A stretch of 64,000 nt of DNA. Origin: Macrocystis pyrifera (lineage: Eukaryota; Sar; Phaeophyceae; Laminariales; Laminariaceae). The translations under genes were made by a program, and so were the position numbers. Shown one piece after another: positions 12,601-63,573 of the stretch. Position 1 is the first letter of the stretch; each line of letters begins with the position of its first letter. The notes under the pieces were generated by a model. That model did no database searches and was not told where the DNA came from. It worked only from the letters and a program-made list of their open reading frames with translations. The stretch spans positions 434,001-498,000 of the forward strand of contig JASSKH010000026.1 of assembly GCA_031763025.1 (NCBI GenBank), read 5' to 3'.

Positions 12601-15600
12601 AAATGGAAAAGGAAAACACAAGACCAAGAAATGGAAAATTGGAAAGGAACGAGAAAAAAAGTAATGATTATTCGAATAAATTAAATAGCAAGAATATGAT
12701 CGTTCGGGCGGGGGGGGGGGGGGGGGGGGCTATGGAATGGAGAAAATGCTAAAAAAAGAGGGAGAGGGAGAGCTACAGCGAAAAGGTGTCCCCTCGTTAG
12801 TTGCATTTAGAGTGCCCGCTGAAACATGGATGTATTTAGTTCTATATTCTCAAGTCTTCGGGAGTTTTAGGAGTGCAGTCTCGTTTTGGGGACAAACCAC
12901 TCAAATTATGACTATTAATAGTTTATCCCCAAAACGGGACTGCAGTCCTATTTCGGGGGACCATAGTTACTAGCACCTATGGGGTACATAAAAACCTATA
13001 TATTTACCTATTTTTACTAACAATATCTGGTCCTATTTACTATGGTCGTCCGTAATAGAACGGTAGTTCTCGACGAACGTGAACGAAACACAGACACAAG
13101 AAGGCGAACCTGGTATACTTGCTGTGGTTGCACGGAAAAACAGCAGCAATATTAATAGTAATAATAACCGACAAAGCGCTCAGACGTGCCAGCGTATCAC
13201 ATAATTTAACGGTACTTTATACAGGTTCTATTACGGGGGGCCATAGTAAATAGGACCAAATATTGTTAGTAAAAATACGTAAATATATAGGTTTTTGTGT
13301 GTACCGTAGGTCCTATTAACTATGGTCCCCCGTAATAGGCAAAATAGGTCTGAGGTGTTACCAGATAGCACGTTTCTTGCCGTATCATTCATTCCAGTAC
13401 TAACGTAAACATATACGGAACTTGGTGCCTGGTACAAAGCATCGACGTGAAACACTTTTGAGGGAGAGGCGACTGCCCAGTACCCAGGGGGTGTTGACGC
13501 CCTGGGTGAGAACTGGGGCATCTGATGTGTGTAGAATGTTTGCCTATATCTACATTTTTGTTTTAGGAACCGACATCCGTACATTTTTTATGTACCAGCA
13601 ATACTCAACGTTTTTGTATTGTGTGTTTTCGGTGTGTGTTGCTTATTTACAGGAACGATATCGATGTATAGACTAATTTACTCTGGTCCCCCCCCCCCCC
13701 CCCCCCCCCCCCTCCCCCTCTTGTTGACGAAGGAGCGAAAATCTGATTGAGGTCGAAAAACTGGAGCACTGGGCTAGGTCTGGCCTGAACATCTCCGCTC
13801 GACGAGTAATGGCCGCGCTGTCACCGATCAAGGTAGACCTTTAACCATTGTATATATGTATACCCCTACACGCCCCAGGGGAACAGAGCCATCGGCCTGT
13901 GTCCTTCATTGTTTTGCTTTTCGGTGCTCTTGTGTGCTTTGCACCGGTTCGCTTATGACGGTTAAGCTTGGCTTTGCCTCCTCAGCTTGGCTTCGCTTTG
14001 CATCGCTTGCCTTACCTTGCGTTGCCTTCCGCAAATTTCGTCAGCGCAGCGTACTGTAACTGTTCGCTTTAGATATAGATGCACCCGGTGATACTGCAGT
14101 ATATTTACGGGTCAAAATGTGATCACCGGGGTGTGCTATCATCAGCGCAGCCTACTGTAGCTGTTCGATTTTCAGACATAGATAGCACATTAACGCACCT
14201 TGTGATACTGCTGTATATTTACCGGTCAAAATGCTATCACCGGGGTGTGCTATCATCAGCGCAGCCTACTATAGCTATCCGCTTTTCAGATAGAGATAGC
14301 ACAATAACACACCCGGTGATACTACTGTATCGTCACCGGCGAAAATGTTATCAGATAGTACATTAACACACCCGGTGATACTGCTGTATAATTACCGGTC
14401 AAAATGTTATCACCGGGGTGTGCTATCATGAGTGTTCCCAGTACCTGGTACAGTAACAGATTAAAGCGGTATATAGATGGTTCCCGCCCTCTTCGTATAT
14501 ACCAGTACGTTTTTTTTTTGTTAAAACATCGTACATTCTCAGGCAGTCTATTGTGGGGTCAGTTTCTAAAAGGTTTTCAACCACAATTCCCCCCCCTCCC
14601 CCTCCCTTCTTGATTCACCACCTCTGTACTATAGGTGACCCTTACAAATCTGACAGGGAGCTTGGAGTTTGAAGCGCTGGATGTGCCGTTCGCGCCCGAG
14701 AGAGGCTCGCACAAGGTCCGCCTGACGTCGACGCTGTTTATCGATGCGTCGGACTTCAGAAGAAAAGACTCCTCCGACTACTTTGGTCTAGCTCCCGGCA
14801 AGGTGAGACTGCGTCTGGGGCTCACGGGTGCTTGGTGGGAAATCGTAGAGGGAGGGGGTGGGTGGTGATTTGCGGGGGCTCGTGGGTGGTGAACTCCTCT
14901 GACTACTTTTGAGCCCAGCTCCCGGCAAGGTGATTAGGTTCGGTGCTAATGTATTGCCTTGGTCGATTGACCATCGACCACGCATCCGTCTCGGGGGTCG
15001 AGGTTTACTGCGATGTCGTACGGCAGATGGCAATTTGTCTTGCTATTGAAAAAAAAAATAAAGACCAATACGAAAGCCTACGATCCTTTTTTGGCTTTTT
15101 GTATTTTTACAACTTGACGTATTTCTGTTTTTTTTAGTCTCGTAAAAAGGTTTATTTATAGTCTAGAGCCCCAGTATCGTGTGGCAGGCGACGCTCTGTC
15201 CTTACTTGGAAAAAATGGGTGTATCCCCCCCTCCCCAATTCCCCGCTCACCGACTCCGACCCGACCGCCTCTCTGGCCTGCTGCGACGGACACCTTTCTG
15301 TTTTCTTGTCTTTTTTTGACGTTCGCCTCGTCTGTTCCGCTTTCCTCTCGCGCGTGAAATAAGATGGTGGCCCTCAAGTACTGCAACGCGACCATGCGCT
15401 GCGACGAGGTCGTCGACGGGGACGGCGGCCCAGACGCCCCCCCTGCCGAACTTCGCTGTACGTTTGAGGAACTCCCCGCAGAACCTTCCTCCGCGGCAGC
15501 TGCGACGCCGGCAGCGGGGCCGGGCGTGGAAGGTGCGGTTACGGTGGACGAGAAGGTGGTGAAACGGTCGAGGCCGAAGGGGAACATCTCGTGGGTTTCC

Positions 15601-15882
15601 GCGGAGCAGGCGGTGCGGGCGGAGGTGAGGCTGTACAGCCACCTCTTCTCGGTGGACTCCCCCGACGACAAGTGGGAGCAGCAGGTGAGAGAGATTTTGA
15701 CTGATGGTGCTCACCCCTCACCCCACCTCTCCTCTCTTCCTTCTCCACCTGCTCATTTCTCGGCCCATAGGGTCAACCCCGTGCATATTGTCTTGACACT
15801 TAGTTTTCGGTTGCCGCCCGCTCTCCCTATCGCCTCTCCAGTACCACCTCCAAATATCAAGCGTTCACCCGCCCTCCTTCCT

Positions 15883-15917
<35 letters not shown>

Positions 15918-18900
15918 CCCAATATGTCTGGTCGGTGAAAACCCGACGCGCTCCGTCCCGGCATTGTAGGGATGGGAGGGTCTATGGTCATACGACTACG
16001 GCCATGCATGATAATGAGTACCCCCCCCCCCCCCCCCCCCCCCCAATTAGTCCGACGTTGTCATCCAATGCGAGAAAACCAGCCTTACGAGCGGGTCTTG
16101 GTAGGATGCAGCTCACCGTTCGTGCGACTCGCCGGAGGACACCTCACGGCGAATCGCGCTTGGTGCAAGCAATGTCTACCTGGTCGGTAAAAAACCCGAT
16201 GTGCTCCGTCCCGGCATTGCATATAGGGATGCGAGGTTCCTATGGTCGGTCAGTCGCATGACAGCAACCCCCCAAGGACTGGAGCCCCGCTTTGGGGACA
16301 AACTAGTCGAATGTCAGCAATTTGTCCACGAAAAAGGGCCTGCAGTCCTAGCCCCCCTCCCGCCCACGGCCATGCATGACACCGAGTACACCCCCCGCCC
16401 CCTAACGCCTCGATCCCCACCGCGTTTGTCTGTTCGTTTTCTTTGCCGGCGCGTTTCTTCGCTGGTCAGCTCAACCCCGAATCGGAAGTGGTTCTGTCCG
16501 GTGCCGTGATCGATCCCTCCGTCCTCGAGAAGGAGTGCTCCAAGGGCACCCCCCTACAGGTAACTGAATGACCACAGATTCACAGGAACTCGGGGTAAGC
16601 AATAAATTACTGTTTTGCACAGTCAGTAGTAACTGGTCGCGCACTTGTGTGCGTCGGTAAACCCCGGTCGTTAGATCGATCGGTCGGGCGGTCGGGCAAC
16701 CGGTGACCTTCGATCGTCTCGATTTTTTTTTTTGTTGTTGTTGCGGTAGAGCTTTTGCCGGTTATCCGAGAAAATCATTTGACATACAAGACTACTAAAT
16801 ATATAGGGTGTTTGCGAAGATTTTTTTTTGTTGGGGGGAGGGGGTTCATGGTGTTTGTAGGCTGTTTCTTACGTACACCAGGCACACCACTCTGTCCCTA
16901 ATTGGAAATAACGTTTTTTGCTCTGTATTAATGCACTAAGGAATTGTTGTTGTTGTTGTTGTTGTTGTCTTCACATTAAATCGTCCTTTCTACCCAGCTT
17001 CATCAGTACACCCAGTGTCCGTCCTGATTCCTTATCCTAGAGAGATACTGATTCCGTGGTCACAGACTGTGAGACAGAGGAAGAGCCAAAAATAAAATAA
17101 AATAAAAAATATTGGCAACTTCAAGTGTCAAGCAAGTGAAATGCCAGCGTACCGGGTACGAGAACACAACAACACAAGCGAGACCAAAAAAATAAGAGCA
17201 AAAAGACAATGAAACACAAAAAAACAAAAATTTGAAATGAAAAACGAATGTTGTATTTATAGACAGAGTGGTGATGTAGTATTAATTGCTGTGGGAAGAA
17301 GCGGCCAAAAATGACCTGTTTTTTTTTCAACCCAACTCTTCTTGGGTGGGGGTTTGTGCTCTTCTGTTTGTCTGTGTGCTAGTTACAAAACGGCGCAACT
17401 TCTGATTTGGCTAATAGGGGCCTTCTGAAAACCCCTGTTGAGCCAATCAGCTCCTCATGTTTTGTTGGTTTCAAATGTCTTCATAACCCAGCCAAACCGG
17501 ATTAGTATCGCAAAATACCCCGTTAATGCAATGGTTGGTTGGGTCTGATGGGCTCAGGGTCAAGGTTAGGGTTGGTTCTATTCGTCTTGTATCGACCTTT
17601 TTTTCGACTAGGTGGCAAGCTACCCTCGTTTCTTGGGGAGCCGTGTAGATTAACGAAAATGGCATTCGCTCGTAAATTTGCCTTGTTTTCATGCTGGTAC
17701 AGCGACAGTCGGGGTTTCCTACACGGTACATAGTCCGGCGTTTTTGCTATTGAGGGATCGGAAGCGCTTTTTGTTGCGTTCATCGAGACCCCTTAATACC
17801 TTCCGTCCTTGAGGAGAGGTGCTCAGAAGGTACACGCCTAAAGGTATTGAATTAGAAAGGTATCTCCTCTCTGTGTACCTCTTCTAGGACAACGGCAGTG
17901 GGGGTTTGCTCTGGTAGTGAGGCGTTTGCTGTACTATAGGGGTTGGAGTCGATTTTTTTTTTCCGTCTCCGTGTTCCCGGGTTTTTGTTGACCCCTATTA
18001 CAGGTATCGAACATTTGTCATAAATGTCCTCACTTGCAATGGCGTGTAAGCCTTGGTGCGTTTCAACCCCCCCCCCCCCCCCCCCCCCCCTCCTCTTCCC
18101 ATCCCAACCCGCTGAAACGCTCCCCGCCGTTCCTCCCTTTTAACTGTGCGATTGCGCTCGAAAGTTGGAAAGGATTGGGTTCTTCGTGGTGGACCAGGAT
18201 TCGACCCCTGACATGCTTGTCCTTAACCGAACGGTGACTTTGCGAGAGGCCGCCGGAAAGAGCACCGCGCCTTCGGGCAAGAGCCGCAAGGAGCAGCAGG
18301 CGAGTGGCTTAGATTGCGCTGCTGGTCGCTAGTCGATTGCGCCGCTCGTTGTTGGTTGAATTGCGCCGCTCGTCGTGGGTTTGTTGCGCCGCTCGTCGTT
18401 GCTCAATCGGGCCGCTCGTCGTGTGTTGGTTTGCTTCTGGTTGTTGATCGTTTGGGTTATTTTGGGTTTCATGGTTGGATTCTTTTTTTGAGTTGTTGGT
18501 TTGTTTTTGGTGACATGGTTGATTTCTTCTTGATTGTCGATCGGTTGGTCGGTTTATTTTGATGGCATAGTTGATCTCTTCATGGTTGTTGATTGGTGGG
18601 TTTCTTCTTGCCTATTGATCGGTTGGTTGTCTTTCTGCGGCATGGTCGGTTTCTGCTCTCGTGTCGATTGGTTAGTTGGTTAATGTTTTTTTGTTTATTC
18701 CAGCTTGTTTGTTGGTTGGTTGGTTGCGACAACGGACCAATCGAAACAAATCACACCTCGGACTGATCATGATCTATCTATCTACCAGGTACAGTATATC
18801 ATCTACAGCAGTAGTAGTTCGTCACCTGCCGTTGTCAGATGTTGTGCAAGATCTGCCTTATAGGGCAGATCCAACCCAGTAAACGTGCGGTAGATCATGC

Positions 18901-19564
18901 AGATTTTACGGCTCCCACCTGCCAACAGGAGCTACTGCTGTAGATCATACAAGATCGAGAACAGAACATCTGCGTTGAAATATCTGGATTATGCAGTGGG
19001 AAGCGATGATCCGTCCAAGCAGTAAAACAGAGACAGTGCGTACCCCGATTTAAGAGCGCTCAAGATAAGAACAATCAAATCGGCATGTCCCGCTTGTAGT
19101 AAAAGCGACCGGGTATATATATCCCACTACAGATAAGAGCGCTGTGTATTACTGTAAGAGCGCCTGATTTTGCTTGTCGTGGGGCGCTCCGCTCTTTAGT
19201 CGGGGTACCCCCACTCCTGTGCCTTTTTTTATACGCACGCGCTCCTAATAACCTATTATATTTTCCCACCATCCCGGTTGCGTCTCCGTCTTTTTTTCCT
19301 TTTTTTTCTTGCTGTTCTTGTTATATATTTTTTCGCTGGCAGGCGCGTCAGGCCGCGGAAAAGGAGGCGCGGAAAAACGTGCCCCCCCAAGAGATGTTCC
19401 TGCCCCAGACCGATCTCTACTCGGCCTTCGACGATGCGGGAGTCCCAACGGCTAACAAGGCCGGAGAGCCGTTGAGCAAGAGCGCCATCAAGAAGCTCAA
19501 GAAGGAGTGGGACAAGCAGAAGAAGTTGTACGAAAAGGCCCAGGCGGAGGCGGGGAAGGCGTGA
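6526..19564 (+). CDS. Glutaminyl-tRNA synthetase (eukaryotic class Ic type), 3' twelve exons, 5' end outside the window
   Basis: The enzyme charges tRNA(Gln) with glutamine, using ATP, in the cytosol. Exons: 6526-6630, 8207-8341, 8801-8911, 9462-9556, 10292-10427, 12198-12349, 13733-13832, 14635-14802, 15364-15684, 16470-16559, 18165-18299 and 19343-19564 (stop TGA 19562-19564). All junctions keep phase, giving 589 codons plus stop. Family-typical segments in order: [56 protein letters not shown], the KMSK-like VLSKRR, then the anticodon-binding beta barrels ending [17 protein letters not shown]. The HIGH motif and any N-terminal tRNA-binding domain must lie upstream. It is eukaryotic GlnRS rather than GluRS because of the VLSKRR loop and the [10 protein letters not shown] segment. 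One intron has a GC donor. The C-terminal extension after TLRE is basic and low in complexity. Confidence 0.97.
6820..7160. repeat. 21-bp minisatellite that grew inside a family D palindrome
   Basis: About 12-13 units of gtaaccttgtccaatttatc plus one base (6859-7128). One side is gaggacaaaccgctcaattt, the other ttgtcccagaacgggacgac. These flanks are the outer arms of family D, so the array replaced its loop. The multiple-of-3 period leaves all frames open, which explains the repetitive ORFs here. Confidence 0.85.
8207..8341 (+). CDS. GlnRS exon b
   Basis: Forty-five codons from TGKAYVCHQ to SPWRDRPIE, phase 0 at both ends (acceptor ccgatag, donor gtaacg). The SPWRDRP segment is a strong eukaryotic GlnRS signature near the acceptor-stem binding insertion. 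Confidence 0.96.
8606..8713. mobile_element. MITE family B copy
   Basis: Intron b-c of GlnRS. tattacgggggtccatagtt … ctatt-aagtatggacccccgta; the right end is slightly decayed. Confidence 0.9.
9462..9556 (+). CDS. GlnRS exon d: IYPTYDYTH active-site segment
   Basis: Encodes [20 protein letters not shown] followed by [11 protein letters not shown]. The PTYD..H residues line the glutamine/ATP pocket in characterised GlnRS structures. It ends in phase 2 and joins the next exon as AG+T (Ser), reading DSLEDIDYS. Confidence 0.95.
10292..10427 (+). CDS. GlnRS exon e
   Basis: Reads (S)[19 protein letters not shown], then [20 protein letters not shown] and LNITRT. It matches the family stretch between the PTYD motif and the KMSK-like loop. 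Acceptor gcgggcag, donor gtgaga. Confidence 0.95.
10690..10787. repeat. Family D palindrome
   Basis: ccagtcccgttttgggggac … gtttgtcatccaaacgggac then tgcagtc, bounded by taaccct and agggtt. Confidence 0.87.
11013..11135. mobile_element. MITE family B copy with expanded C run in its right end
   Basis: The normal CCCCC of the right terminal repeat has grown to about 22 C before gtaatag. The left end has the usual GGGG. Confidence 0.88.
11219..11326. mobile_element. MITE family B copy
   Basis: Begins gttacgggagtccatagtta and ends tatggtcccccgcaata, 84 bp from the previous copy. Confidence 0.87.
11380..11475. repeat. Family D palindrome
   Basis: gatcccgtttttatgggtaa … gtttgtcccccaaaatggga then ctgcag. 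Confidence 0.82.
11528..11700. repeat. Family D palindrome split by a MITE
   Basis: The left half ggggacaaaccagtcaaatt and the right half ttttgtcccccaaaacggga are separated by the complete family B element at 11556-11668. Confidence 0.87.
11556..11668. mobile_element. MITE family B copy inserted into a family D palindrome
   Basis: Flanks 11528-11555 and 11669-11700 are the two halves of a family D element. Other D copies read agTAgtttgtccc where this one has acTA[element]TAgttttgtccc, showing TA duplication. Confidence 0.9.
11760..11874. mobile_element. MITE family B copy
   Basis: gattacgggggaccatggtt … tactatggccccccctaata. Confidence 0.87.
12198..12349 (+). CDS. GlnRS exon f: KMSK-equivalent loop VLSKRR
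   Basis: Begins [20 protein letters not shown] and ends in phase 2 at …EDIGVTR. VLSKR is the GlnRS version of the class I KMSKS loop that positions ATP. The following [15 protein letters not shown] is the connector into the stem-contact fold. Confidence 0.96.
12868..12948. repeat. Family D palindrome
   Basis: agtgcagtctcgttttgggg … gtttatccccaaaacgggac then tgcagtcc. Confidence 0.85.
12949..13057. mobile_element. MITE family B copy abutting family D
   Basis: tatttcgggggaccatagtt … tatggtcgtccgtaata. It starts immediately after the ctgcagtcc end of the family D element at 12868-12948. Confidence 0.87.
13229..13337. mobile_element. MITE family B copy
   Basis: tattacggggggccatagta … aactatggtcccccgtaata, nearly complete. 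Confidence 0.9.
14037..14430 (+). repeat. Tandem array of about 110-120 bp units
   Basis: ggtgatactgctgtatattt, accggtcaaaatgctatcac, cggggtgtgctatcatcagc and gcagcctactgtagctgttc recur three to four times. Lies within GlnRS intron g-h. Confidence 0.85.
14635..14802 (+). CDS. GlnRS exon h: anticodon-binding domain start
   Basis: Fifty-six codons, VTLTNLTG to [12 protein letters not shown], forming the first anticodon-binding beta-barrel strands. The 3' end of this exon, with its donor, is imperfectly repeated 90-130 bp downstream (see the repeat at 14886-14940). Confidence 0.94.
14886..14940 (+). pseudogene. Duplicated 3' end of GlnRS exon h
   Basis: aactcctctgactacttttg then agcccagctcccggcaaggt repeats exon h's last 40 bp (gactcctccgactactttgg / tctagctcccggcaaggt), including the donor. 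It is in the following intron and has an insertion that breaks the frame. Confidence 0.8.
15364..15684 (+). CDS. GlnRS exon i with low-complexity insert
   Basis: Begins [17 protein letters not shown], continues from GLAPGK in phase 0, and ends DDKWEQQ. Between the conserved ends is an Ala/Pro/Gly stretch of about 25 residues ([19 protein letters not shown]) not usual in the family. It then returns to [20 protein letters not shown], the standard GlnRS strand. Confidence 0.94.
15922..16044 (+). repeat. Family C repeat, truncated, with C tail
   Basis: Only the 3' half: ggtcggtgaaaacccgacgc, cggcattgtagggatg, acgactacggccatgcatga, then gagta and a run of about 24 C. Confidence 0.82.
16045..16395 (+). 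repeat. Family C repeat interrupted by family D
   Basis: Longer copy with gatgcagctcaccgttcgtg, cgcttggtgcaagcaatgtc and the cggcattg segment. It is broken at about 16262 and resumes at 16364, ending cgagtacacccccc. Confidence 0.8.
16270..16352. repeat. Family D palindrome inside a family C copy
   Basis: ggagccccgctttggggaca … agcaatttgtccacgaaaaa then gggcctgcagtcc. Family C sequence resumes at 16364 (cacggccatgcatgacac). Confidence 0.78.
18165..18299 (+). CDS. GlnRS exon k, followed by a GC-AG intron
   Basis: Reads [20 protein letters not shown] then [13 protein letters not shown]…KEQQ. The donor is CAG|gcgagt, so the next intron begins GC rather than GT. The downstream acceptor ctggcag|GCGCGTCAG keeps phase 0. 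Confidence 0.93.
18765..19020. repeat. Family F repeat (gatcat/ctgctgtagatcat)
   Basis: Shares gtgcaagatctgccttatag, gatccaacccagtaaacgtg and gctactgctgtagatcat with copies at about 21655-21955, 42710-42975 and 43555-43790. Internal short palindromes on GATC. Confidence 0.75.
19343..19564 (+). CDS. GlnRS terminal exon
   Basis: Seventy-three codons and a stop (TGA). It encodes a charged lysine-rich tail, [20 protein letters not shown] to [26 protein letters not shown] followed by a helical [13 protein letters not shown] segment resembles C-terminal extensions of other eukaryotic aminoacyl-tRNA synthetases. Its role is not known from sequence. Confidence 0.93.
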   Translation, partial: ARQAAEKEARKNVPPQEMFLPQTDLYSAFDDAGVPTANKAGEPLSKSAIKKLKKEWDKQKKLYEKAQAEAGKA

Positions 19565-19615
19565 CATAGCGGAGCAAAAGGGGTTGGGGGGGGGGGGGGG
19601 GTGGGGGAGATCTTG

Positions 19616-19840
19616 CATTTTGTATTGGATCTTGCATTGGATCTTGTCGTGTACCTGCAGTTGGATCTTGCATTGGATCTTGTCGTGTATCTTGAGTTGG
19701 ATCTTGTCGTGGCTCTTGCATCTTGCCTTGGATCTTGTGGTAGGTTTTGTGTTGGATCTTGTCGTGGATCTTGCATCTTGGCTTGGATCTTGCCGTGGAT
19801 CTTGGAGGTTGCCGTTGATCTCGGTCGTAGATCTTGGATA
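19616..19840 (+). repeat. Degenerate 12-bp repeat 3' of GlnRS stop
   Basis: Units around ttggatcttgca / ttggatcttgtcgtg, about 15 in number, starting roughly 50 bp after the stop and following a G run at 19583-19600. Probably in the 3' UTR or just beyond it. Confidence 0.8.
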
Positions 19841-20237
19841 TTTAGTGGTCACAACAGTTTGTATCTCTCTTCGGTTTCGTTTGTACGGGGGCGTGTTTTG
19901 ACCCGAGGAGGGGGGGGGAAGGGGGAAGGGGTTGTGCGACTTGAGGTCTTCGTGTTGTACGTATGTACCGGAGTGACAGAGTGAGAAAGAGAGAGATGAG
20001 GGAGTTTAAAAGATTCTCGCGAGAATTTGTATCGAAAGGTATTTTTGGTGTCGTCCTTGTCCCGTGTACAAGGATTTCGCCGGGGATTGTCCCAACACGT
20101 GATCACACCCCTTCAACTTGTTTTTCATCTGGTGTACACGATACACGATGCTCGATGCCACGCGTTCCGGGGCTAGCTGAAGTGTGACGAAGGCGATGGT
20201 TGCACGCCTCGGGCAGATCATCTGCAGATACTGTTAC

Positions 20238-20346
20238 TATTACGGGGGTCCATAGTTAATGGGACCAAATTTTGTTGGTAAAAATACGTAAATATATAGG
20301 TTTTTATGTACACCATAGGTCCTATTAACTATGGACCTCCGTAACA
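20238..20346. mobile_element. MITE family B copy
   Basis: Lies 3' of the GlnRS gene. tattacgggggtccatagtt … aactatggacctccgtaaca. Confidence 0.9.
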
Positions 20347-20894
20347 GATAATTCCCACTTGATCATCTTCCCTCTGTACGGTTTCAGCTCCCCGGAAAAG
20401 GACGATGCCACTGCTGTTAATGATCGCTGGCGTATGTATTTCGGATCTACCCGGTACTTCGTATATACCTCTCGTACCGCTGTGATGGTGCGTACGAGTA
20501 GCCCCATTGGATTGACGAGGCTCTTGGCTGTCTCTGTCGTAAAAAGTACGGTACCAGGTACTCTTGCGAGTAACTTATTGATAGTCACACTGTTCCCAAT
20601 GTCCCGTACGTGAGTCTCTGCTTGGTTGTGGGTATTCAGTCGGTTACTTGTGTTGTGGCACTAACTGCAGGTGGCCTGGGAGGTAACAGGTTGATTGCTG
20701 GTAGTACTACTGCTGTATACGAAATACCTGGCGCCTTATAATGCCGCAATTCGATACCATCACACAACAGTGGCGGACTGTGTCATCCGTTATCCCGTTC
20801 ATGCGATTCTTCATTCGGTCGACATCGGAATCGCAAAATGTAGACGATATTCATCAATAGTGTCGCCGATGTATTCATGACGTCTTTTACCAGC

Positions 20895-21130
20895 TACAAA
20901 TGCCCCCCGGAGGGGGGGTGTACTCGATAGGAGAGATGTACTCGATCTCATGCATGGCCGTAGTCGTATGACCATAGACCCTCGCATCCCTACAATGCCG
21001 GGACGGAGCATGTCGGGTTTTCACCGACCAGGCAGACATTGCTTGCACCAAGCGCGAAGCGCCGTGAGGTGTCCGGCGAGTCGCATGAAGGGTGAGCTGC
21101 ATCCTACTAAGAACCGCTTGTGAAGCCAGG
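20895..21130 (-). repeat. Family C repeat
   Basis: Reverse complement of the family, starting with a G run and tgtactcgat and ending ctgcatcctactaagaaccg. It lies in the interval between the converging genes. Confidence 0.82.
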
Positions 21131-21654
21131 GGGGGGGTGGTGATCCGATCGGGCTCTATTCGCTCGTTCTATTTCACTCGAAATTCAAGCGAGCCAACCG
21201 GTTTGTCGGGAAGAAAAACGATTCGTATCAACAATAATCGCTTTCTGCGCCGAAATCGATTTTAATACTACGAGGTGTTCGAGTTTTCGATCTGATTCCA
21301 CAGCCCTAGTACATTAATGGTGGTCGTAATGGTGATGAAAAAACTAAAATGAAAAAGCCGGACAGATCGTGATCAAAATCGACTCGACCTATGTGCAGGA
21401 GCGTCCTGCACAAGGGTCTCATTAAGTAAGGGCGGGTTTTTTTCGGCCGCCCGGCGTTTTTTTGGGAAAACGCCGACAAAACACGAGGCGGAGCCGCGTG
21501 ACTGCCCCTGCTAACCTCGAGCCCCCCAAAAGAATTGGGGTTATAGGGTCAGGCCTGGGGTTGGGTTGGTCTGGGCCGACGTGCAAGGTCGAAACTGACG
21601 ACACACGCCCCGCATATTTTTTTGTGCAGGGGGCTCCTGCACATTGTGGGAGCC

Positions 21655-21955
21655 ATCTAAATAATGTAATTCCTCACCTACCAGCCGTGGCGAGAGGTTG
21701 TGCAGGATCTGCATACGTACCACTCTGACCTGAAATATAGGGAGCGTTAGCATATAACTATTCAATCCGAAAGGTCCTTATATTTTGGGTCAGAGTGGTA
21801 GTATATATCCAACCCAGGAAACGTGTGTTATGTGCTGAAAATCATGCAGATTGTACGGGTCCCACCCGGCAACATGGACCACTGCTGTAGATCATGCATA
21901 CAAGGTCGGAAATAGATGATCTATCTGCCTTGAAATATATTTAGTACGTGAAGCA
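21655..21955. repeat. Family F repeat
   Basis: aggttgtgcaggatctgcat, tatccaacccaggaaacgtg, actgctgtagatcatgcata. A tattttgggtcagagtggta inverted segment lies inside. Confidence 0.72.
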
Positions 21956-22789
21956 GGAACTGAGAATAGAATCTAATCCAGGTGTGTGCACATTTTCCGC
22001 ATTTCGCTGCTGGAGTTTTCATCCGGGAGGCGGGGGGAGGGGGTTCGAGACCGCCGTCCCCTCCCGTTTGACGTTAGCTTGCCCCATAGGAATCAACACA
22101 AAAACAAGCCATGCGTGTTGTATACATTCACACCTGGTACATATATATGTATGTAACATACGTGCACCATGAGCGAAACCGGTGATATGCTATTATTGAT
22201 GACGATGATCGTAATGGCACTGTTGTTACCGAAATGAATCATGACGATGATGATGGTGATGATGACGATGATGACAATGTTGACCAGAAAATCATCCATG
22301 CAGCAGCAGTCGCGACATCTCTTACCGCCCGAAACACAAGGCAGAGTATCATACCCACTACTCAACCACTGTACTGACCCGAATACTGCTCAGCAGTTTG
22401 TCTCTGGATACTACTGTACCCCTGATCACTCCTCCATCACTCACACAGCAGCAGGTAGGTAGCATGACTCGAAAGGCGGAGTTGAATTTCATCATGCAGG
22501 GGAGCGTCAGCCTGGCTGCGAGGCGCATGCACGACCCTCAACCGTGACGGACGATAGACACCGGATGCACCAGTAAACCAGTAACAAGTACGGGAGAAAT
22601 GCTTTCAACAGACGAAAGAAAATAACGAAAAAACAAAACAAAACTCAAGCCCTCAACAACGGCGACAAAATCTCATGAGAAACACCAACGCACACGCCTC
22701 TCTGCCCAGCCCAGGCAAGCCAAACAACACCGTCGCCACAGAACAAAACCGCTTAATTGTGATGTTAGCACTGTTGTTGGCAGACTGAT

Positions 22790-22832
<43 letters not shown>

Positions 22833-24019
22833 TGGGGTATCCGTACACAGAACCATCATGCTGTTTCGCCAGCGAAGGGTCTGCCAACACTGAATCAGTA
22901 CGGGTACGTACGTACGGGAGACAGGCGGACGAAAAAACGGTGCTAAACCCCTCTTGCGTACATTGTACGTACGTACGTACGTACGTAAGGGAGACACAGA
23001 CAGACAGATAGACAGACCACCCAAACGGTATTCTATACCCGGCAATTACCAACAGAATATGTCCCAATTAATGCACGCCATACACAGTCCACGTACGCAC
23101 GGCAGACAGGCAAAGGAACTACACGGTGTTACACCGTTACTACCAACAGAACGCCCCGTAAAATACACGCCATACATACCATACAAACCCCCTTCCGGCA
23201 CCGACAGAGCGGCGCAACAGAGAGCAAAAAAAAACGCCATCACGTCCGCGGCTTGCCCGGGCGCCAACAAAAAAAAACACCACCAACCCCCCCCCCTCCC
23301 CCCGTCTCCCGAGTTCCCTCCCCCATCCCCGCCGCAAAAACATCCCAACAAACACACCACAATAATGAAAACAGACAACACGCGTTATTATGTTACTAAA
23401 GAGAAGGAGCACAGCGGCAAGCAAGCGTCCGCCTGACACTTTTGGAAAACCATTCGACGGCAGCCCACAGGGGGTAGCGTGCCAATCCCCACCCCCCCAA
23501 CCCCATGGGAGTTATATATGAATATCGCACGCCTTCTTGGTGTCGATTGCCGATGGACACGGCAAACGTTTTCCAAAACGCGCTCGGGCAAAAACCACGC
23601 TGAATCAATCACCACGCAAGAACAAAGCTAAAATAAACCGAACCACTCCTCACACGGCGACCCAAAACGGAAACCATATCCCCCGTCCCCCATCCCAAAG
23701 AACCCTCTCCCCCACCCGCCCACAAAATATCCATATACTCCAGTCTGTCCCCAATTTTCCAACCCGCTCCAATTATTCCTCCCCCCCCCCCCCGCGTTTT
23801 CCCTATCTCACCCTTCCCTCCACCCCCCCTGCCCTGGCTGTAAAATTCGTCGCATCCACATCCAAAAATCGAACCGAAAAAAACAAAACAATAAAGGAGC
23901 CAAGCACACACACAAAAATATGGGCCGGCTTATTTTGTACTCTGGTTACACAGCATGGCACGGCTCATGTTGGTATACGTTTCCCCCCAAGGCTGCCACC
24001 ACTACCACCACACCGCACG

Positions 24020-24385
24020 TCAGAGGGCGACGAAACCGCCAAAAAATTGGCAACCAACAGCTTCCACACCACACGGGCATAGGGTGATGAAACCGCCAAA
24101 AACCTGCCAACCGACACCTTCCACGCAACACGGGGAGGGCAACGAAACCGCCGAAAAACTGCGAACCGGCACCTTCCACCCAACACGGTAGAGAGCGACG
24201 AAACCACCGAAAAACTGCGAACCGAAACCTTCCACAGCTCATGGCAGAGGGCGGGGAAAACGCCAAATCAAAAATGCCAACCGACACATTCCACGGCCCG
24301 TGGCCGAGAGCGACGGAACCGCCAACAACCTGCGAACCGACACCTTTGGAAGCCGACACGGTAGAGGGTGACGAAACCGCCGACA
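24020..24385. repeat. 57-bp tandem array, seven units, 3' of USP
   Basis: Unit marked by gcgacgaaaccgccaaaaa, cctgcgaaccgacaccttcc and acacgg. Starts near 24026, 24084, 24138, 24190, 24246, 24305 and 24364. Ends about 330 bp before the USP stop. Confidence 0.85.
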
Positions 24386-24714
24386 CACAAAACGGCACAA
24401 TACCTCCCGCAACAGCGACGACAGCAGCAACAGCAAAAGCAGGCGCAGCGGCAGCAGCAACGACAGCAACGGCGGCGGCAGCAACTGAGGCAAGGCAGCA
24501 GCGCCAGCAGCAGCACCACCACCACCACCACCACCACGATCACCCTTAACCCCTCCCAATCCCCAACCTCCTCCAGCACACAGCACAGGCCCTGCAGCCC
24601 AAGCGGCTTGCGCGCTGGCGAACCTTACGAGATAGCGAAGGGTGCGAGCGACGTACATAGCGAGCGGACAAAAGCGCAGCGCCAAAAACAAATGCCGGAC
24701 CGGATTCCCTCCGC

Positions 24715-24884
24715 TCAAAGGCGCGTGTACAGGAGAAGGTAGGGGTGGCCATTGACGGGATTGAGAGCGTGGGCTTCCGTCTCGGGGGAAACGACCTGGT
24801 CGTCGAAGTGGCGCCATGTACCCCTAGCGTCCCTGACGAGAGCGGTGTAGTGGCCGCCATGGAGACTTCGGCCGTGATGCAACA
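24715..24884 (-). CDS. USP terminal exon: catalytic His and Asp
   Basis: LHHGRSLHGGHYTALVRDAR then GTWRHFDDQVV and finally PYLLLYTRL with stop TGA at 24717-24715. The His of GGHYT and the Asp of FDDQ complete the catalytic triad. Confidence 0.97.
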
Positions 24885-27800
24885 CTGAATAACAAATGAG
24901 TAAACAAGTTGTTTGAAAGTATGGTGAAGGGAGTTGAACGCCGTGCGAGAGCATAACAAGGAGAGGGGGACCAGGGGGAACGGGAGGGGTGAACTCATGT
25001 CATGGAATAGGGGGGGGTGGAGCAGTGGCCCCCATTGAGGGTTCGGCTGTCATGCAACACAGAATAGACGAGACAAGATTACATATCTTAACGGGAGTTG
25101 CAAGTCGTTCGAGAGCGTAGAACAAAGGGGCGGGAGGGGGGGGGTAGTGGCTTGCCATGGAGGCGTCAGCAGTGACGCAACCCTGAATTAATGATATGAA
25201 ACGTCATTACGACAGGAGTCGCACGTCATCCGAGAACGGGGGAGATGTGGGGGGAGGGGGGTTAGGTTCAGCATGGTAGGGGGAAGGCCCTGTGTTCAAT
25301 CGTGATGAAACGCAGAATTCATAAATTTCTTCAACTTCCATCGTGGCGGAAGACAACACGGGGATACCCCTCTAAACTGTGAATATAGTCACCGTTGGGA
25401 GTATAACATGAATACAAAACGGTTCTTATATTCGCGAACAGAGTGGTGCTCAATAGAGATCGGGAACCGTTCGTACAGGGTGAAGAGTGTGTGCGGGCGG
25501 GGGAGCACTCGATATCATGCATGGCCGTAGTCGTGTGACCATCGACCCTCCCAGCCCCAAAATGCCGGGACAGAGCTGGGGGGCGGGGGCGGTAAGGTGA
25601 GGACGGTTGGTGTAGTAGGGGCTCCGTGAAATCATCACCAATACATAAGAGCTTCGACCCAATACCTTTTTGTTTTGGTATTTGAAGCCCTTAAGAATTG
25701 CACTTCCGTTTGGGGACAAGTAACTTGGGAATGAGTCAAAACACACGACTAAATTTCTGTACATCGCAGTACTAAGGGTTCAAGAACGAAGTTTTCGGGA
25801 TGGCATAAGCGGGAACGAGGCATGTAGGTATGCTCCTGCGACCATCATCACCACCACGACCATCACCATCACCATCTTCTACCACCCGCACAATCGTCAC
25901 CGACACCCCAAGAGGGCGATCATGATCATCACCACAACCGTCACCGATACCCGTATCATCAGAGAAGCATTCATGACCATCATAGAGCTTTTACCGACGC
26001 CAACCATTATAATCATGAACAGTGATGATCACCATCACAACGAATCCATTGACGCCATCGCGATCGTGAATCATCACCACTATGTCATGGTTATCTATCA
26101 GAATCACGAGAACAATCGTAACTATCTGTCCATGCACGATCATCAACGCCTTCTCACCGACGGTAAAGAGGCGGTACTTGAGAGGACCCTTCTTGGAAGC
26201 CTCGAGCTGCAGAGAAGGGGACATGATCCTTGTCGGCACCGTCAGATCCAACGGATACCTGTCAACGGGTTGCGTTGTTTAAACGTCGCACGACAGCGGT
26301 CAGTGCTGCAGTGTTTATTTCATCCAGTGTTTCTTGCATTCAGTGTTTCTTTCAGTAGACAGTTCTATTCCAGCGCGGTGCGCTCGAACACTATTCATTC
26401 CTAAGCTCCATCATCAAGATCCCCATTTCCAAATCATCCTCACATCGGATAACAACAATACCGCTGATCCACGATACGGTAGGATACAACAGATACGACA
26501 GCTCTCGCGATCCCTCCTGCGGCGCAAGTTCAACGTCAACTTCAACCCGAACCTCATCATTTACCAAGTCGCCAACTGAACCCGCGATTCGGGAGACAAA
26601 AAGCCTGCCACGAGAGCTGGGTCATTCTTGCAGCAGTACAAGAGACAACCGTAGTGTAACCAGCTTCAACCTCAACTTGAACCTTAACAATAACGTCAAG
26701 CATATCTCGTAACTCCAACCTCAAGTTCAACTTTAACCTCAACTCTAACTTCAACCATAACCTCAACTACCCAGCACCAACTCTTAGCCATAAACTCAAG
26801 CCCAGCCATACACCCTCAACCTCAAATTCAACCCCAACTTCAAGTTCAGCCATAAAAATCAAGCTCAATCATGACCTCAACTTCAAGTAAAACTTGAACC
26901 CCCAACTCTTTTCTTCAACTAGAACCCCAATTTCATGCTGCAATCTCAACTTTCGCCTTGAATATCTCAACTCAACTTTCAACCTACAGTATGAACCTCA
27001 ACCCTCAACCGTCTGACCACAACCTCAACCATACCCTCAGCTTCAACTTCAACTTTAACTTCAAGGTCGGCAATTTACCTGACGTGACGGGCGAGCTTGC
27101 GCGGTCCCAGCTCCGGGTGGAAGGAAAACTGTTTGAGGTGCAGCGTCAACACCTTCGGCGCTTGCTCTAGCGTCAGAGTTCGAGAGGCCTTCACCTTCAT
27201 TGAGTAGGTGTCAACAAACAAGGGGTGGGGGGGGGGTTACGCTCATGTCATGCATGGGCGTAGTCGTATGAACAAAGAGGGGAGAGGAGAGGGGTACTTG
27301 ATATACAAAATTGGTTTCTGTTACCTGGTATTTTGGCGATTGCTCCAGCGTCAGACATCGAGAAGCTTTCACATCAAGCAGGCGTCAACAACCACCGGGA
27401 GAGAGGGGACGGGAAGCGCGCTCACTTGTTGCTCGATTAGTCATTTGACCATCGACCACACATCACTTTCGAGACGGAGCGAGGGGGGGGAATATATATG
27501 CCAGTACATATATATACACCAGCCTGATTTTGTTCTTTTGTTGTTTCAGAATTTTCCTCGTCGTCCGTTGCGACGGTCTGCCACTATTGATACCGGTTTT
27601 AATTATTACGGGGGACCATAGTAAATAGGACCAAATATTGTTAGTAAAAATAGGCAAATATATAGGTTTTTATGTGTACCATAGGTCCTATTAACTATGG
27701 ACCCCCGTAATAATACCGTACACCACTCCTCTGTCTGGAAGTACAAGGACCGCTTTGTTATAAGTATGAATGTCCAGAACGCCCTTCTATTGCGGTATCA

Positions 27801-30800
27801 GTATCTGGTCTTCCGGATGAGCCGATAGCAGCGGAATTCTTGGTTCCCAACAGGTACTGCCCGTAAGTACTGTATGGTACGGTAGTACACTGGTATCGGG
27901 TAGGCCAGCGCACTGCAGTAGTACCAAAGAGCACAACACCTCCCACCCAAGAAACAAAAAAACTACCCGCAAACAAACGCGGACCCTCAAAAGCAGTACA
28001 GCGGTACGCACGCAGTGTCTCTGTCTCGCGTTTTTTTTTTCAGCACAGAGCTTGTATCTCCCTAGGACTGAAGAATCGGCACGGACACTGGGTAAGCGTG
28101 CTGGACGTCGACGAGTATATAGGAAGAACGGTTTCATGGAGGGTGGCCTACGGCACCACGTATTCCAGAAAATGGTTGATACACCCTGCGTACGAGACGA
28201 ACATTAACCTTATCTCTAATTCTCATCCAATCGGAGCAACTCTAACCCGAACCCTGCCAATCAGACCAAATATCTAACAAGTGGTAAGCTCTACCGGTTT
28301 GATGTGAAGACCACACACCCCAACACAGCAGTAAAGCACCCACCTCCATGTTAAGCCTTCCCTTAACACCAGCCACCGCTTCCCCTCCGAACAACGCCGC
28401 GAGAGCTTCGTCCAAAACCGTGGCCCCCGCCCTAGGGGACGACATCGACCCAGCCCCTGCCCACGCCCCACCTCCTCCACCATCCGCCGCGGGGCCTCCC
28501 CCGCCCCTCTGCGACCACCCCCCCGCGGCACCCCACCCGTTACCACCACCGCCTCGAGGTCCATCAGCACCTTCCGCACCGCCGCCGTTGCTGCCATTGA
28601 CGGTTTCATAACCGTTTGTTGCTCCCCAGGCGGGGCTGGAAGAAGACGTCCCCTCCCCATAGGCGTTATTATTGTGGTTTGTTTGGGCGGGTGGTATCGG
28701 CGGGTCTAGGTCAAGCTGGTGGGGAGTTGTAAGGAGATGGTGAGGATGGGGGAAGGGGGGAGGGGTCCGGAAATCGGCGAAGCGAGAAAAAGGAAAAAGG
28801 GGAAGGGGTAAAGGGGGGGGGGGGGGGTTGGTCTCAACAGCTCAAGCTTGAAAACGTTTTAAGCATCCGCCGGGGGCACAAAAAAACTACCGAGGGGAGT
28901 ACTGCATACATCCGCACGCCGCCCGGAAATCACGTTTCCTGTTAACGTTCGCTCATGCTGTGTGCCTTTCGGGGGAGTGGGGACCGACCCCAGCAAACCT
29001 CCGCATCTGACAAGAAGTGATAAGATAGAGAAGCAATCGCGTGCATTGCATTGCATCGCATTTTCCTCCGATTATCACAAGACCGTTTTCGGCCCTATCC
29101 CGGAGAAAGGCCACGACGTTGTTGAAAAAGAGGGATAAGACCGAAGTAGAGACAGCGCCACCTGAAGCAGCGGCTTGGCACGGGGCGTGTCTTCAAAGTA
29201 GGACACCACTGCAAGCATACTGGGTCCTGTAACAAAACAAAGCAATCAGGCTTGCCAAGCGGATGGGTGCCCCAGAGCACCTACACACCCTACGGCAGTA
29301 CGAGGGTACGCCCGACGTCCATGTCATACCCTACAACAGACATACACCCTCGGTGATTTTGGTTTTCACCTGGAGGCAGTGGAAGGGTTCGCGAGTGACG
29401 GATGATTTAGCGTTCCCGCTCTTCTTGACCTCCGATCGAAACATGCCGTAGAATAACTCCGTTATCTGCGGGCACGCGGTCCAATCCCACGCAACAAAAG
29501 GTAGAGAGAGAAAGACAACAAAGGGAAGCAATCGTAGGTAAACAGAGGACGCGGGCAGCATGAAAACGGCAAAAAAGGGCAGAGCGCAAGGTAAAAGAAA
29601 AAAGGGTACTACAGTAAAACAAACACACGCTAAAAAGAAAGCACAATAATAATAACAAACACACGCGAAAGGACGAGTTTTACTCGCGACGACAGAGAGA
29701 GAGCGGCCAAACCAGCAGCGGAACAGGAAGCACCCCCCCGCATTCCACCGTCCCCCCTCATGGCCCTACCCCCCCCCCCCCTCCCTTAACCCTACAAAGA
29801 GCGCCCAAGTGTTGTAGGTGTCTCTATTAGGAGTAGGAACGGTGCTCCATCTCGAAAGGGATGCATGCGTGGTCAATGGTCAAATGACTACAAGCGACAA
29901 ATGACTACGCCCCCCAACCCCCCCCGCCCCCATTTCCCCACAATCGGCTAAAATCCTCCTCTCTTGACCCCCCATCACCGCCCCCCCCCCTCCTCAACCT
30001 CTACCCCCCCTTCCCCCTAAACTCCCTCACTCACCCCCGCCAACCCGACCCCCCCTGTCCCATCATAAAACCTCATCACCACAACAATCACCACCACCAA
30101 CACCACCCCCCCCCCGCCACCCTTCAGCCCCTCCCTAATGACTCCACCAAAAAAAAAACACCCGGTCACCGCAAACCCCCCGCCCCGCCCCCCCCCCCGC
30201 CCCACCCCGCCCCTCACCACAACTTTCCTCTAAAACCACCCCCATCCCGCCCCCCTCTCCCACGATAAAACCTCATCACCACCACCACCACCACCCTCGC
30301 CACCCTCCAGACCCCCCTTCCCCCACTACAAAAACGCACCACGGATGAATTAGAAACCCGTCGTCGCGGGTCGGGCACGTTAACGACCGCCTTCGCTCCT
30401 CCCTTCCCAACCTCCATCCACTCGTCGTCCTCCTCCTTTTCCTGTGCGTGGCTGCCCCCCCCGCCGCCCCCCAACCCCGCCCCCACCCCCCGCCGCCGCA
30501 GTTCGAACTTCCTTCCGCTTGACCGTCCTCCTTCTCCTGCACCTTTTTCGCCTCAACGATTTCCTCGTGCAACTGATGACCATCACGTACGTGTGTTTCG
30601 TTCAGTCCAGGTCACACCGAGGTGGGGGTGGGTAACGGGTGACGACAAGGAGGGGGAAGGGGGCGGGGGGGGGGGGGGGGGGGGGGGAGGAGGGGGGGGG
30701 AGGGGGCCTGTCTTTTACAGTGCTCATCAGGTACCTCCTTAGCAGGTGTTCCTGTGCACTGCTGCTGCTGTATGGAAGAGAGGCAAACTCGAACCGAAAA

Positions 30801-32709
30801 AAAATAAAGGAAGAACAAAACTCATGCAACAGGATACCCAGAACTAATCGAGTCATCAACTCGTGTGTGCGTCGGGGGACCGCGTCAATCAGCCGGGATC
30901 GTCAATGTTTTTAGCGCCTTCGAAGTGATAAAAGTACTAATGGCATTGCATTTGCTCCTCTATCATTCCATGACAAGAGAAAGGGAAGAAGCGCCAGACC
31001 CCCCCCCCCCACCTGGTCCAAAAAAAACGCGAGGAACTCTTGCGCGTCCTCCTGCTCCCCGAGGTTGGCGCTGCGGAAAGCCCCGAAAGCTCTCGACATT
31101 GCCTGTGCAAGGCGAAAACGCGAAAGGAAAAAAAAAAAAAAAAAAAACAGAAGCTCGGCATTATTGAACGAACTGCTCTGGGGGGGGGGGAAAGGGGGGG
31201 GGAGGGGGAGTATGACGAACATGGAAACATGATGGAAGCAAAAGTTGGAGCAAACTGGACGCAAAATTGAATAGAATTAGAAGTGTCAGTAGGAACCAAA
31301 TGGAAACAGAATGGGAGGAGGGGGGAAGAATAATGTACGCCGAATCAAAACGATTCTATATACGATAGCTGACGAAACAAGCGCAAGCACAAACAGAGAC
31401 AAATAGTACGAAAAAAAGCAGTCTGCGAGCAGGGCACCAAGCAACAACATGAGAAGCGGGAGGGGGTGTACTCATGCCATGCATGGCCGTAGTCGTGCGA
31501 CCATAGACCTTCGCATTCCCTACAATGCCGGGACGGAGCACGTCGGGTTTTCACCGACCAGGCAGACATTGCTTGCACCAAGCGCGAAGCGCCGTGAGGT
31601 GCTGGGCGAGTCGCATGAAGGGTGAGCTGTGTCCTACTAAGAACCGCTTTGGAGGCGGACTTGATATATAGATGACAGCTTCGAATGAATTGATTACTTT
31701 TCTGGTGTCGCCACTTCCAGAGAGATGCAATGTATATACTACGTACCTGCCTCGTAGGTGCCTCACCATATACCAGGTACTCATTACGTGACATGTGATG
31801 CGGGAGGAGGCGCAGCCGGGACAGAGAGGAAAAGCACTCTAGTGCTATCATCGCCTACCCCCTCCCTGCACTACACAGAACAGATTTCTCCCTGTCACTG
31901 CTGGAACCACCAGACGGTACGCATGAACCACCGGCAGCGAAGTAACTCGGAGAGCAAATACGAGACGGAAAACAAGAAAAAACACAGACCGCACTACGCA
32001 TGCGGCTCCGTCTGTTCACCATATCGCATGGTATCACACTACACCGTTCCATACCACACCATACCAACACCATACCATACCACACCATATTAGCATCGCA
32101 ATACAAAATATATTATGGTCACTTTTACCACATCCCGCAACACCATGATGATAAATAAACATGTCGCGCCTTTTTCACGTCAGAAAATATCTGATACCAC
32201 ATGATATCCCCTCACATCACATCCTCTATCCAAATTCCACGACATGATGAGATATCCCGCCACATCACCACCCCCCCCCACCCCCCCACCCACCCCCTTC
32301 CATCCCACCTCACCTCATCCGGTAAAACAGGCTCTGGAGCCCCCGACGGCCTTTGATACCGCCCCCCCCTACTCCTGCTGACGGGCATCGACCATGCCCC
32401 GCCCCCGCCCCCGCCCCCGCCCCCTCTCCCCTTGTTGCCACCGCCTCCTCCTAGAGGTACCGCTGCCCCAGGCTTAGGCGGTTCAAATGCCGACGCGAAT
32501 CGCGCGAGCTGTGCCCACGTGGGGAGCGCCTTTTGAGCGGGGATGGAATCTCGCAGCCCCGACGCAGCCCCGAACAGTACCCTGAGGATAAATATGAAAG
32601 GGTGGCACGTGTGGAAGCATTTTTTGGGATGGGGAGAGGGGAGGGGGGGGAGGGGGGGAGGGGAGAGGGGGAGGGGGCGGAGGCAGGGGGGGAGGCGGAT
32701 GCGTGGAGG

Positions 32710-32763
<54 letters not shown>

Positions 32764-34610
32764 GCAGGGGGGGGGGGGAGGGGAGGGGGGTGGCGGGAAG
32801 GGGTGGTAAGGTTGATGTTGATCTCGATCAATCCCGACGTGATTGTGGAGAGATAGGGGGAAATATAGTTCACGGCCGATCATATTGCCGGATGGGTGCG
32901 AGCGCGATATATCACTGCCGTACCATCAATAGTCATCCTGATCGGAAAACATGGCAAGAAATTATTTTTCACGATTCCGTTAGCTTGGGCGTGTGGGTTC
33001 GGGCAGGGGAGGAGAGGGGGGGGCGGGTATCATACTCATTTGTTTTTGTTGACTGCCTTAGTCATTTGACCATTGACCACGCATCCCTTTCGAGACGGAG
33101 CACCGTTCCTAATCCGAACAGGGACAAACTCAGCGAGAGGGGGGAGCGGAGCCGTGTCTGCGTACTGACACACTGGACCGTGTCGCGTCGGCGGTCGGGA
33201 AACCGACTCAACCTTCGACACCTTACACGGGGCACGCAAGTTTTGGGGAGAAACCAACGGGAGCTAGATTAGGCGCTTTTGGCCAAAGCGACAAAAGGTG
33301 AGCAAGCGCTAACATCGGGGGTAGAAAACAAAAGCGAACACACATCTGAGAAAGGCTTTCAAGGAACCGACTACAACCACTGCGGTCAACACAAGCGAAA
33401 GGGAACAACACCACGCAAACCTTCAGTCAGCGATCCCCCCGGGCACCTCGAGGATGGAGACACACCGCCCGCAACCGTCCGGGAACAGACAATCAACTCA
33501 CCCCACGAACGGCTCACACGCCAGCAGCGCCTGCAGCACCACGCTTCGGAAGCAGCTGTTGCCTGTGTTTACCAACCCACGATGTATCAACTCCGGCGCC
33601 GGCTTCGCCGGCTGCAGCAGCTGCGCCGCCGGCACCACTGCCCCAACCCCCCCTACCCCCCCACCTCCCACTACCGCCGAAGCCGCCGTAGACCCCTCTA
33701 TCAAACCGTTCTCCCTCCCCAGCGTTCCCAGCAAAGCTTTCCAGGCCCGTTTCGACTCCACCGCGGCCTCTTCGGCGGCTTTTGCTTCCGCCTCCGCCTT
33801 CGCCGCGGCCCGTGCAGCTTCCACGGCCGCGCTATCCACCACATCTAGGACCTCTCCCACACCTCCGACAGTCCCCGCCTTCCCCTCTCCCTCTCCGGAC
33901 AACGCCTCATCTCCCCCCTTCTTTTCCTTCTCTCTGTCTTTCCCGCCACCACCACCGCCACCCCCCCGTGACGGCGATGCCATCCCCGACCCCCTATCCA
34001 CTGCTGCCGCTGCCGCTGCCGACGCCGCTTCCCCCGCCCCCCCCCCCCCCCCCCCGCGTTACCCCCCCCCTCCTTATCTTCCTTCCCCTTGACCCCGTTA
34101 GCGTAGGAAGGGGGGACGCCTTCTCGCGCGCCTGCGGAAGACTCGACTCCCGCGTCTTCCCAAGCATCACCGCCACCGCCCCACCCGCCGTCGGTGGCTG
34201 CGATAGCGGTTGTGGTAGCAGCCGGAGTTCGGGCGGGGGAGGGTGTGGGTAGCTTTGGGGGTCCCGCTGCGATTCTTGCCCAGGACATGGGCTGTGGTGA
34301 GGATTGTTTGGGCAAAGGAGAAGGGCGGCGGTGGAGGAGAAGGAGGAGGTGGAGGAGGAGGTGGAGGAGGAGGACAACGAGAACGGGGAGGGCGGAGGAG
34401 GAGGAGGAGGAGGGCGACGGGGAGGAGCACGATGAGGACAAAAGGGGGGGGGGGGGAGGCGGCGAAGGGCAAAGGTGAGGAGGGGGGAGGGAAGCGGGGT
34501 GGGGCACAACAACAGCAACGAGAACGACGACAACAAGCGACAACAGCACCACCATCCCCACCAAAACACCAAAACTGCAAACGGTAGACAACGACTCACC
34601 AAAACAACAA

Positions 34611-34651
<41 letters not shown>

Positions 34652-36318: not shown

Positions 36319-36349
<31 letters not shown>

Positions 36350-38273: not shown

Positions 38274-63551
<25,278 letters not shown>

Positions 63552-63573
<22 letters not shown>

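Follow-up and report, generated by a model that had tools for sequence, protein, structure and literature searches.

The 3' splice site is usually described in terms of a short U-rich tract. C-rich sequence can also act there in mammals: C-rich motifs that lie ahead of weak PY tracts in human introns were described as enhancers in minigenes (PMC2481429). In LCAT intron 4, according to the same study, G-rich motifs could fully replace C-rich ones and single C-rich motifs had little effect; inhibition of an alpha-globin intron by alphaCP2 is cited there as well (PMC2481429). The poly-C-binding alphaCPs promote exons with C-rich tracts (PMC4797308).

Here, we analyse a locus at which, as expected of a C-rich or alphaCP-type enhancer, a sense C-rich motif is enriched upstream of acceptors. 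The human C-rich intronic enhancers of PMC2481429 comprise three to four contiguous C, accept G-rich substitutes and have a minigene-backed function, whereas at this locus we read from sequence a zone of ~150-200 nt with pure C runs of up to 66, in which G is scarce. The alphaCP/PCBP-dependent tracts (PMC4797308) resemble the present ones in being C-rich, 5' of the acceptor and on the sense strand, but belong to mammalian cassette exons and follow a mixed C/U motif, whereas those described here are pure C. Because G-rich motifs can replace C-rich ones in LCAT, an enhancer role by itself leaves the scarcity of G at this locus unexplained. A literature search on intron polypyrimidine tracts in Ectocarpus returned no match, a result that does not by itself prove absence.

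The window, that is, the whole 64-kb stretch of DNA analysed, belongs to an intron-rich eukaryotic genome, has a GC content of 52.6% by base counts and contains three genes: GlnRS (+), a USP-like gene (-) and a long coiled-coil gene (+), for which we keep the label "golgin-like" from an earlier note on this DNA. Nine of the 12 GlnRS exons align to PDB GlnRS chains, three of them strongly, and the exons at 13733, 16470 and 19343 were set by reading frame and by what we take to be the GlnRS sequence; the GlnRS exons were also inspected base by base. The USP gene has three UCH matches in Pfam, a strong one at E 3e-7 and weak ones at 0.017 and 0.12, and the exon at acceptor 27194 overlaps a weak one; no family match was obtained at USP acceptors 32581 and 31102. 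The translation of 17799-17843 (+) resembles the GlnRS exon 16470-16559; it may represent an exon, duplicated or decayed, that lies in the following intron.

All other exons come from a small gene model built on codon usage, a donor matrix and an acceptor scored on the last 4 intron bases and 1 exon base, so that the model is unable to favour acceptors for their upstream pyrimidines. The USP and golgin models depend mainly on this small codon model, and their exon ends are model calls. It recovered 12/12 GlnRS exons, but the same exons were in its training set, which consisted of the GlnRS exons and several golgin exons. An earlier gene finder lacking intron-length and intron costs collapsed to more than 1,000 tiny exons and was discarded. 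The output comprised 80 exons, 46 of them scoring at least 8; seven of the 46 were left out before counting as doubtful (USP 24484 and 30016; golgin 45466, 46987, 48574, 56840 and 63527), and two sub-threshold GlnRS exons were added, 9462 for PDB homology and 13733 for reading-frame continuity, giving a final set of 41 acceptors. Sense G runs of 16 and 19 fall inside predicted exons, which suggests that some exon ends are placed too far out.

Within 200 nt upstream of these acceptors, in the three genes of this one window, we found 23 sense runs of at least eight C, distributed over 17 of the 41 acceptors (Table 1); runs of at least 10 number 16, at 15 acceptors, and 24 of the 41 have no run of at least eight inside this distance. 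With the search halted at the previous exon, intronic sense G runs of at least eight were found at none of the 41 acceptors over the same 200 nt; without the halt, sense G occurs at 2/41 against 2.8 expected. For random noncoding positions in the same genes, the mean was 4.98 of 41 with a C run of at least eight, and 17 was reached in 0 of 20,000 draws. A strict set of 34 acceptors gave 19 such C runs at 14 acceptors and two G runs at one, and an uncurated rerun with 40 acceptors, in which CCC, GGG, TTT and AAA codons score zero and nothing was curated by hand, gave 22 C runs at 16 and two G runs at one. The 12 GlnRS acceptors and USP 27194 alone have C runs at 4/13 and G runs at 0. The C bias of true acceptors is absent from a negative control of 41 spurious antisense-strand acceptors, which have nine C runs at six and five G runs at five. 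Runs of at least eight T lean the same way (eight against one for A), not significantly so relative to random positions (P 0.15).

Table 1. Coordinates of C runs upstream of acceptors, repeats and aligned GlnRS exons; distances are those from run to acceptor
Position	Strand	Feature	Acceptor	Distance (nt)	E
13688..13712	+	C25; probably part of polypyrimidine tract	GlnRS 13733	20	
14589..14608	+	C8 plus TCCCCCTCCCTT, C-rich tract	GlnRS 14635		
18067..18090	+	C24	GlnRS 18165	74	
27227..27236	-	sense C10; tail of element-B relic 27242-27278	USP 27194	32	
28813..28827	-	sense C15	USP 28590 (modelled)	222	
30665..30700	-	sense C23 + C9	USP 30511 (modelled)	153 and 180	
31180..31202	-	sense C11 + C9	USP 31102 (modelled)	~77 and 91	
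31128-31147	-	sense T20	USP 31102	nearer than C11/C9	
32643..32778	-	sense C8, C50, C12 in C-rich block	USP 32581 (modelled)	61-185	
34444..34456	-	sense C13	USP 34266 (modelled)	~177	
36320..36346	-	sense C27	USP 36198 (modelled)	~121	
40989..41054	+	C10 (tail of element-B relic 40916-40975) + C8	golgin 41100	101 and 45	
42118..42126	+	C9	golgin 42205	78	
48972..48984	+	C13	golgin 49173	188	
49141-49158	+	T18	golgin 49173	upstream	
49892..49902	+	C11	golgin 50096	193	
50375..50385	+	C11	golgin 50483	97	
51873..51938	+	C66; element-B tail, then TCTCATCTCCAG	golgin 51951	12	
53500..53510	+	C11	golgin 53590	79	
54654..54710	+	C8 after element-B-like end TGACATGAGTACA, + C11	golgin 54745	83 and 34	
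61931..61962	+	C32	golgin 62175 (modelled)	212	
51609..51872	+	near-full-length element B; C25 at 5' side (51585-51609), C66 at 3' side			5e-92
56094..56357	-	near-full-length element B with C13 tail, antisense to golgin			
31467..31727	-	near-full-length element B with CCCCC tail, sense in USP			
15923..16021	+	element B, 5'-truncated, between C33 and C24			
16044..16249	+	element B, truncated at both ends, after C24			
20937..21126	-	5'-truncated element B, not in any of the three modelled genes; C9 at 5' side, C7 near 3' end			
51252..51481	+	element B; C8 near 3' end			
55959..56074	-	element B, 5'-truncated, tail to head with copy at 56094			
25507..25576	-	5'-truncated element B flanked by C tracts on either side			
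531, 8676, 11630, 13299, 20308, 27674, 41714(-), 61528 and others		repeat A			
11108..11129	+	C22 replacing terminal CCCCC of repeat A copy	far from any modelled acceptor		
9462, 10292, 12198	+	GlnRS exons, PDB alignment at 29-42 bits			
6526, 8801, 14635, 15364, 18165	+	GlnRS exons, PDB alignment at 6-18 bits			
8207	+	GlnRS exon, PDB alignment below zero bits			

All 17 C runs listed in the earlier note are present, with edges shifted by a few bases, and the switch of their strand with gene orientation that it described is real. Of these entries, 14587-14610 is a C-rich tract consisting of C8 plus TCCCCCTCCC, and 50380-50391 is really the end of a C11 (50375-50385) plus an A and CCCCC. Placement of the 17 runs just upstream of modelled acceptors holds for 16/17, at 12-222 nt, two of these (28813 at 222 nt and 61930 at 212 nt) being more than 200 nt from the modelled acceptor, whereas within the window no reliable acceptor follows the run at 63249. 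The spacing of 80-155 bp given for USP fits roughly for four of six runs (~78, 120, 129 and 153), but two are farther away (~178 and 222). The proposal that C runs are the polypyrimidine tract suits the runs that end within 50 nt of the AG, at 6/41 acceptors (runs of at least eight T do so at 5/41), but apparently not the other 17 of the 23, which end 61-193 nt upstream. Those six, a C66 at 12 nt, C25 at 20, C10 at 32, C11 at 34 and C8 at 38 and 45, could serve as the polypyrimidine tract itself; for runs beyond 50 nt, the closer analogy would be an intronic C-rich enhancer recognised by a poly-C-binding protein.

Sense C runs also occur away from acceptors (C22 at 11108, C33 at 15884, C24 at 16021 and C25 at 51585), as does a G42 at 22790 in noncoding sequence. 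The window has 15 C/G runs of at least 20 against one for A/T, exact lengths depending on the assembly, and long C/G runs are thus general in it.

The intron ends that carry these runs are themselves C-rich. With homopolymers of at least eight masked and element sequence itself left unmasked, C makes up 32-36% and G 17.5-23% from -20 to -150 of acceptors, and C/G parity is reached by about -300. After donors (+0..100, runs masked), G is at 32-39% and C at 16-23%. The mean GC skew of the 31 introns of at least 400 nt is +0.18 over the first 200 nt, where it is positive in 27/31, and -0.31 over the last 200 nt, where it is negative in 27/31; the middles average -0.013 (24 introns long enough). 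Because the sign changes inside introns, a mutation bias that acts uniformly with transcription is less likely than a cause tied to splice sites. Pairing of complementary G and C tracts across the intron finds no support, as the two end skews are uncorrelated (31 introns, Spearman -0.09, p 0.64), as are the longest G and longest C per intron (0.16, p 0.39).

Short tracts are distributed in the same manner. Near acceptors, C5-7 tracts outnumber G5-7 tracts by 41:5, and in the first 200 nt after donors, in the introns of all three genes, the ratio is 6:22. Runs of at least 10 relate to tracts of 5-7 as 16:41 near acceptors and as 24:114 in the remaining noncoding parts of the three genes; near acceptors, a run is long rather than short with odds 1.85 times those elsewhere, a difference that is not significant (Fisher p 0.12), and the small sample still allows for modest extra expansion, or selection for long runs, near acceptors.

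SINEs and other short non-LTR retroposons are short and dispersed, with 5'-truncated copies, a homopolymer 3' tail of A and tail-to-head pairs. The window contains, at 17 places, a dispersed repeat of ~267 bp, here called element B, that is likewise short, often 5'-truncated, supplied with a homopolymer 3' tail and arranged in two tail-to-head pairs, but its tail is C rather than A, searches of the window matched it to neither a tRNA nor an Rfam family, and C tracts are found at many of its 5' junctions. A profile of 267 positions, seeded with three near-full copies, identified 15 places at E<0.05, and two further, diverged places come from a previous profile of 116 positions. Three of the 15 matches start at profile positions 2-4 and 12 at 30-243, and 12 of the 15 reach positions 256-267, indicating a common 3' end. 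At least five C lie within 30 nt of the 3' end at 15/17 places (6.5% of random window positions) and, unexpectedly, within 20 nt of the 5' end at 11/17 (4.1% of random window positions); this null takes window positions on either strand, exons included, and the 5' figure for sense-strand noncoding sequence is 5.7%. C tracts flank both sides at 9/17 places, where a target-site duplication would therefore be hidden, and G5 was found beside none of the 17 places at either side. At 16044 and 55959, the 5' tract is the tail of the copy before it. Of the copies inside genes, 11 have the sense and five the antisense orientation, so that the preference for the sense orientation is only a tendency. Element B directly accounts for three of the 23 near-acceptor runs, the C66 at 51873 and the C10 at 27227 and 40989; only its last ~13 nt precede the run at 54654.

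ARAGORN predicted 0 tRNA genes in the window, and Rfam yielded 0 matches at gathering scores, leaving element B with no tRNA, 5S or 7SL-like head in these searches. An introner element would itself make up an entire intron, both splice sites included; element B does not fit this description, given that copies lie inside longer introns, several per intron in places, at varied distances from the acceptor. Three core patterns of element B and of a second repeat, repeat A, gave 0 matches in viral contigs. Two viral contigs, both AT-rich, matched a 21-base pattern, but the similarity covered only ~23 bases and no convincing homology extended beyond it, and two rhizobial genome matches to one 19-base pattern were taken as chance. 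A literature search for a poly-C-tailed SINE or retrotransposon found no match, which does not prove that none exists.

Repeat A is MITE-like, ~110-120 bp long and near-palindromic, with ends TATTACGGGGG...CCCCCGTAATA; its 39-base end pattern occurs at eight places with at most three mismatches. In one copy, distant from all acceptors, the C22 at 11108 looks like a C5 seed that has expanded. The window also contains triplet arrays (AGT x71 at 44945-45158, TGC x21 at 56879-56942 and CTG x35 at 62049-62154), a 21-bp array at 6853-7125 and a TTGGATCTTG-type array at 19611-19838, just past the GlnRS stop.

We consider it probable, although well short of assured, that a C-rich zone at the 3' end of introns, maintained by splicing, provides seeds from which long C runs arise by slippage, the strand of the runs following the gene via the zone. 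The last ~150-200 nt of introns would constitute this sense C-rich zone, with a G-rich mirror after the 5' splice site, and splicing is the probable agent of its maintenance. Nearest the AG, it would act as a C-version of the polypyrimidine tract; farther upstream, it may be intronic enhancer sequence, rich in C, that KH-domain poly-C-binding and U2AF-type proteins recognise. The many C5-7 tracts in the zone would be the seeds, C/G homopolymers apparently expand readily in this genome, and some seeds would slip to C runs of 10-66. The runs at 61-193 nt would be either enhancer sequence or tolerated bystanders, and a minority of runs would be tails of a poly-C-tailed repeat. A pure C run would be tolerated in the zone because pyrimidine character is kept, long G runs would be missing near acceptors because G seeds are scarce, and the strand of the runs would follow the gene because the C-rich zone does. 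A zone that supplies seeds, with expansion roughly uniform, is the simplest account: the masked intron end is still C-skewed and long runs track short tracts, which calls for no separate cause beyond skew and expansion. The earlier statement that the pattern is "not simply local base skew" is thus half right, since the intron end is C-skewed even with all runs of at least eight removed and the long runs track the density of short C tracts.

If the long C runs were themselves selected, as strong landing pads for poly-C-binding splicing factors with length favoured near acceptors, one would expect runs such as the C66 and C25 that end 12 and 20 nt before acceptors and the nominally higher proportion of long runs there, and the alphaCPs (PMC4797308) offer a precedent; nevertheless, the difference in proportion is not significant, 24 acceptors do without a nearby run, and runs as long as C33 (15884), C25 (51585) and G42 (22790) occur elsewhere, so that we regard such selection as unlikely. 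Transcription or splicing could also expand sense C near acceptors by a mutational strand bias, through single-stranded non-template DNA, R-loops or lariat ends. This would fit the tracking of gene orientation by run strand, but is decidedly unlikely given that the skew flips inside introns, from +0.18 to -0.31, and that short tracts are already biased. The strand-limited expansion raised in the earlier note is likewise unneeded, because sense G runs of at least 10 are present elsewhere in the noncoding sequence of the same genes (10, and three more after donors) and the long-to-short ratio near acceptors does not differ significantly.

Insertion of a poly-C-tailed mobile element near acceptors is, in our view, very unlikely to have produced most of the runs as its tails: although element B is present at 17 places with C tracts at most 3' ends and many 5' ends, and three near-acceptor runs, including the C66, come after its copies, the other 20 of the 23 follow no recognisable copy, and the zone is C-rich even with the runs masked, the element sequence itself being left in. 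Stretches of 42-66 identical bases are difficult to assemble, and exact lengths here may err; still, a sequencing or assembly artefact would hardly track gene orientation and acceptor position or recur as the same bias in short tracts, and we consider it exceedingly improbable as the origin of the long homopolymers.

The seed-supplying C-rich zone, our preferred reading, leaves room for a part played by element B. It is possible, although we are more inclined to doubt it, that element B, as a retroposon with a poly-C tail, targets poly-C tracts for its insertion, with this tail priming on the G strand. Such insertion would tend to make it land sense in C-rich intron 3' ends, where its own tail would lengthen the tract and it could become the polypyrimidine tract of the acceptor, as the C66 (51873-51938) appears to have done, a feedback between element and splice site.

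Set against the usual view of the 3' splice site, the sequence suggests that this genome relies on a long C-rich zone from which pure C runs of up to 66 arise. The lengths and distances of these runs form a natural series for how U2AF and poly-C-binding proteins read C, and for how much homopolymer instability splice sites tolerate. If element B sits in such tracts, it would link mobile DNA to the anatomy of the splice site.
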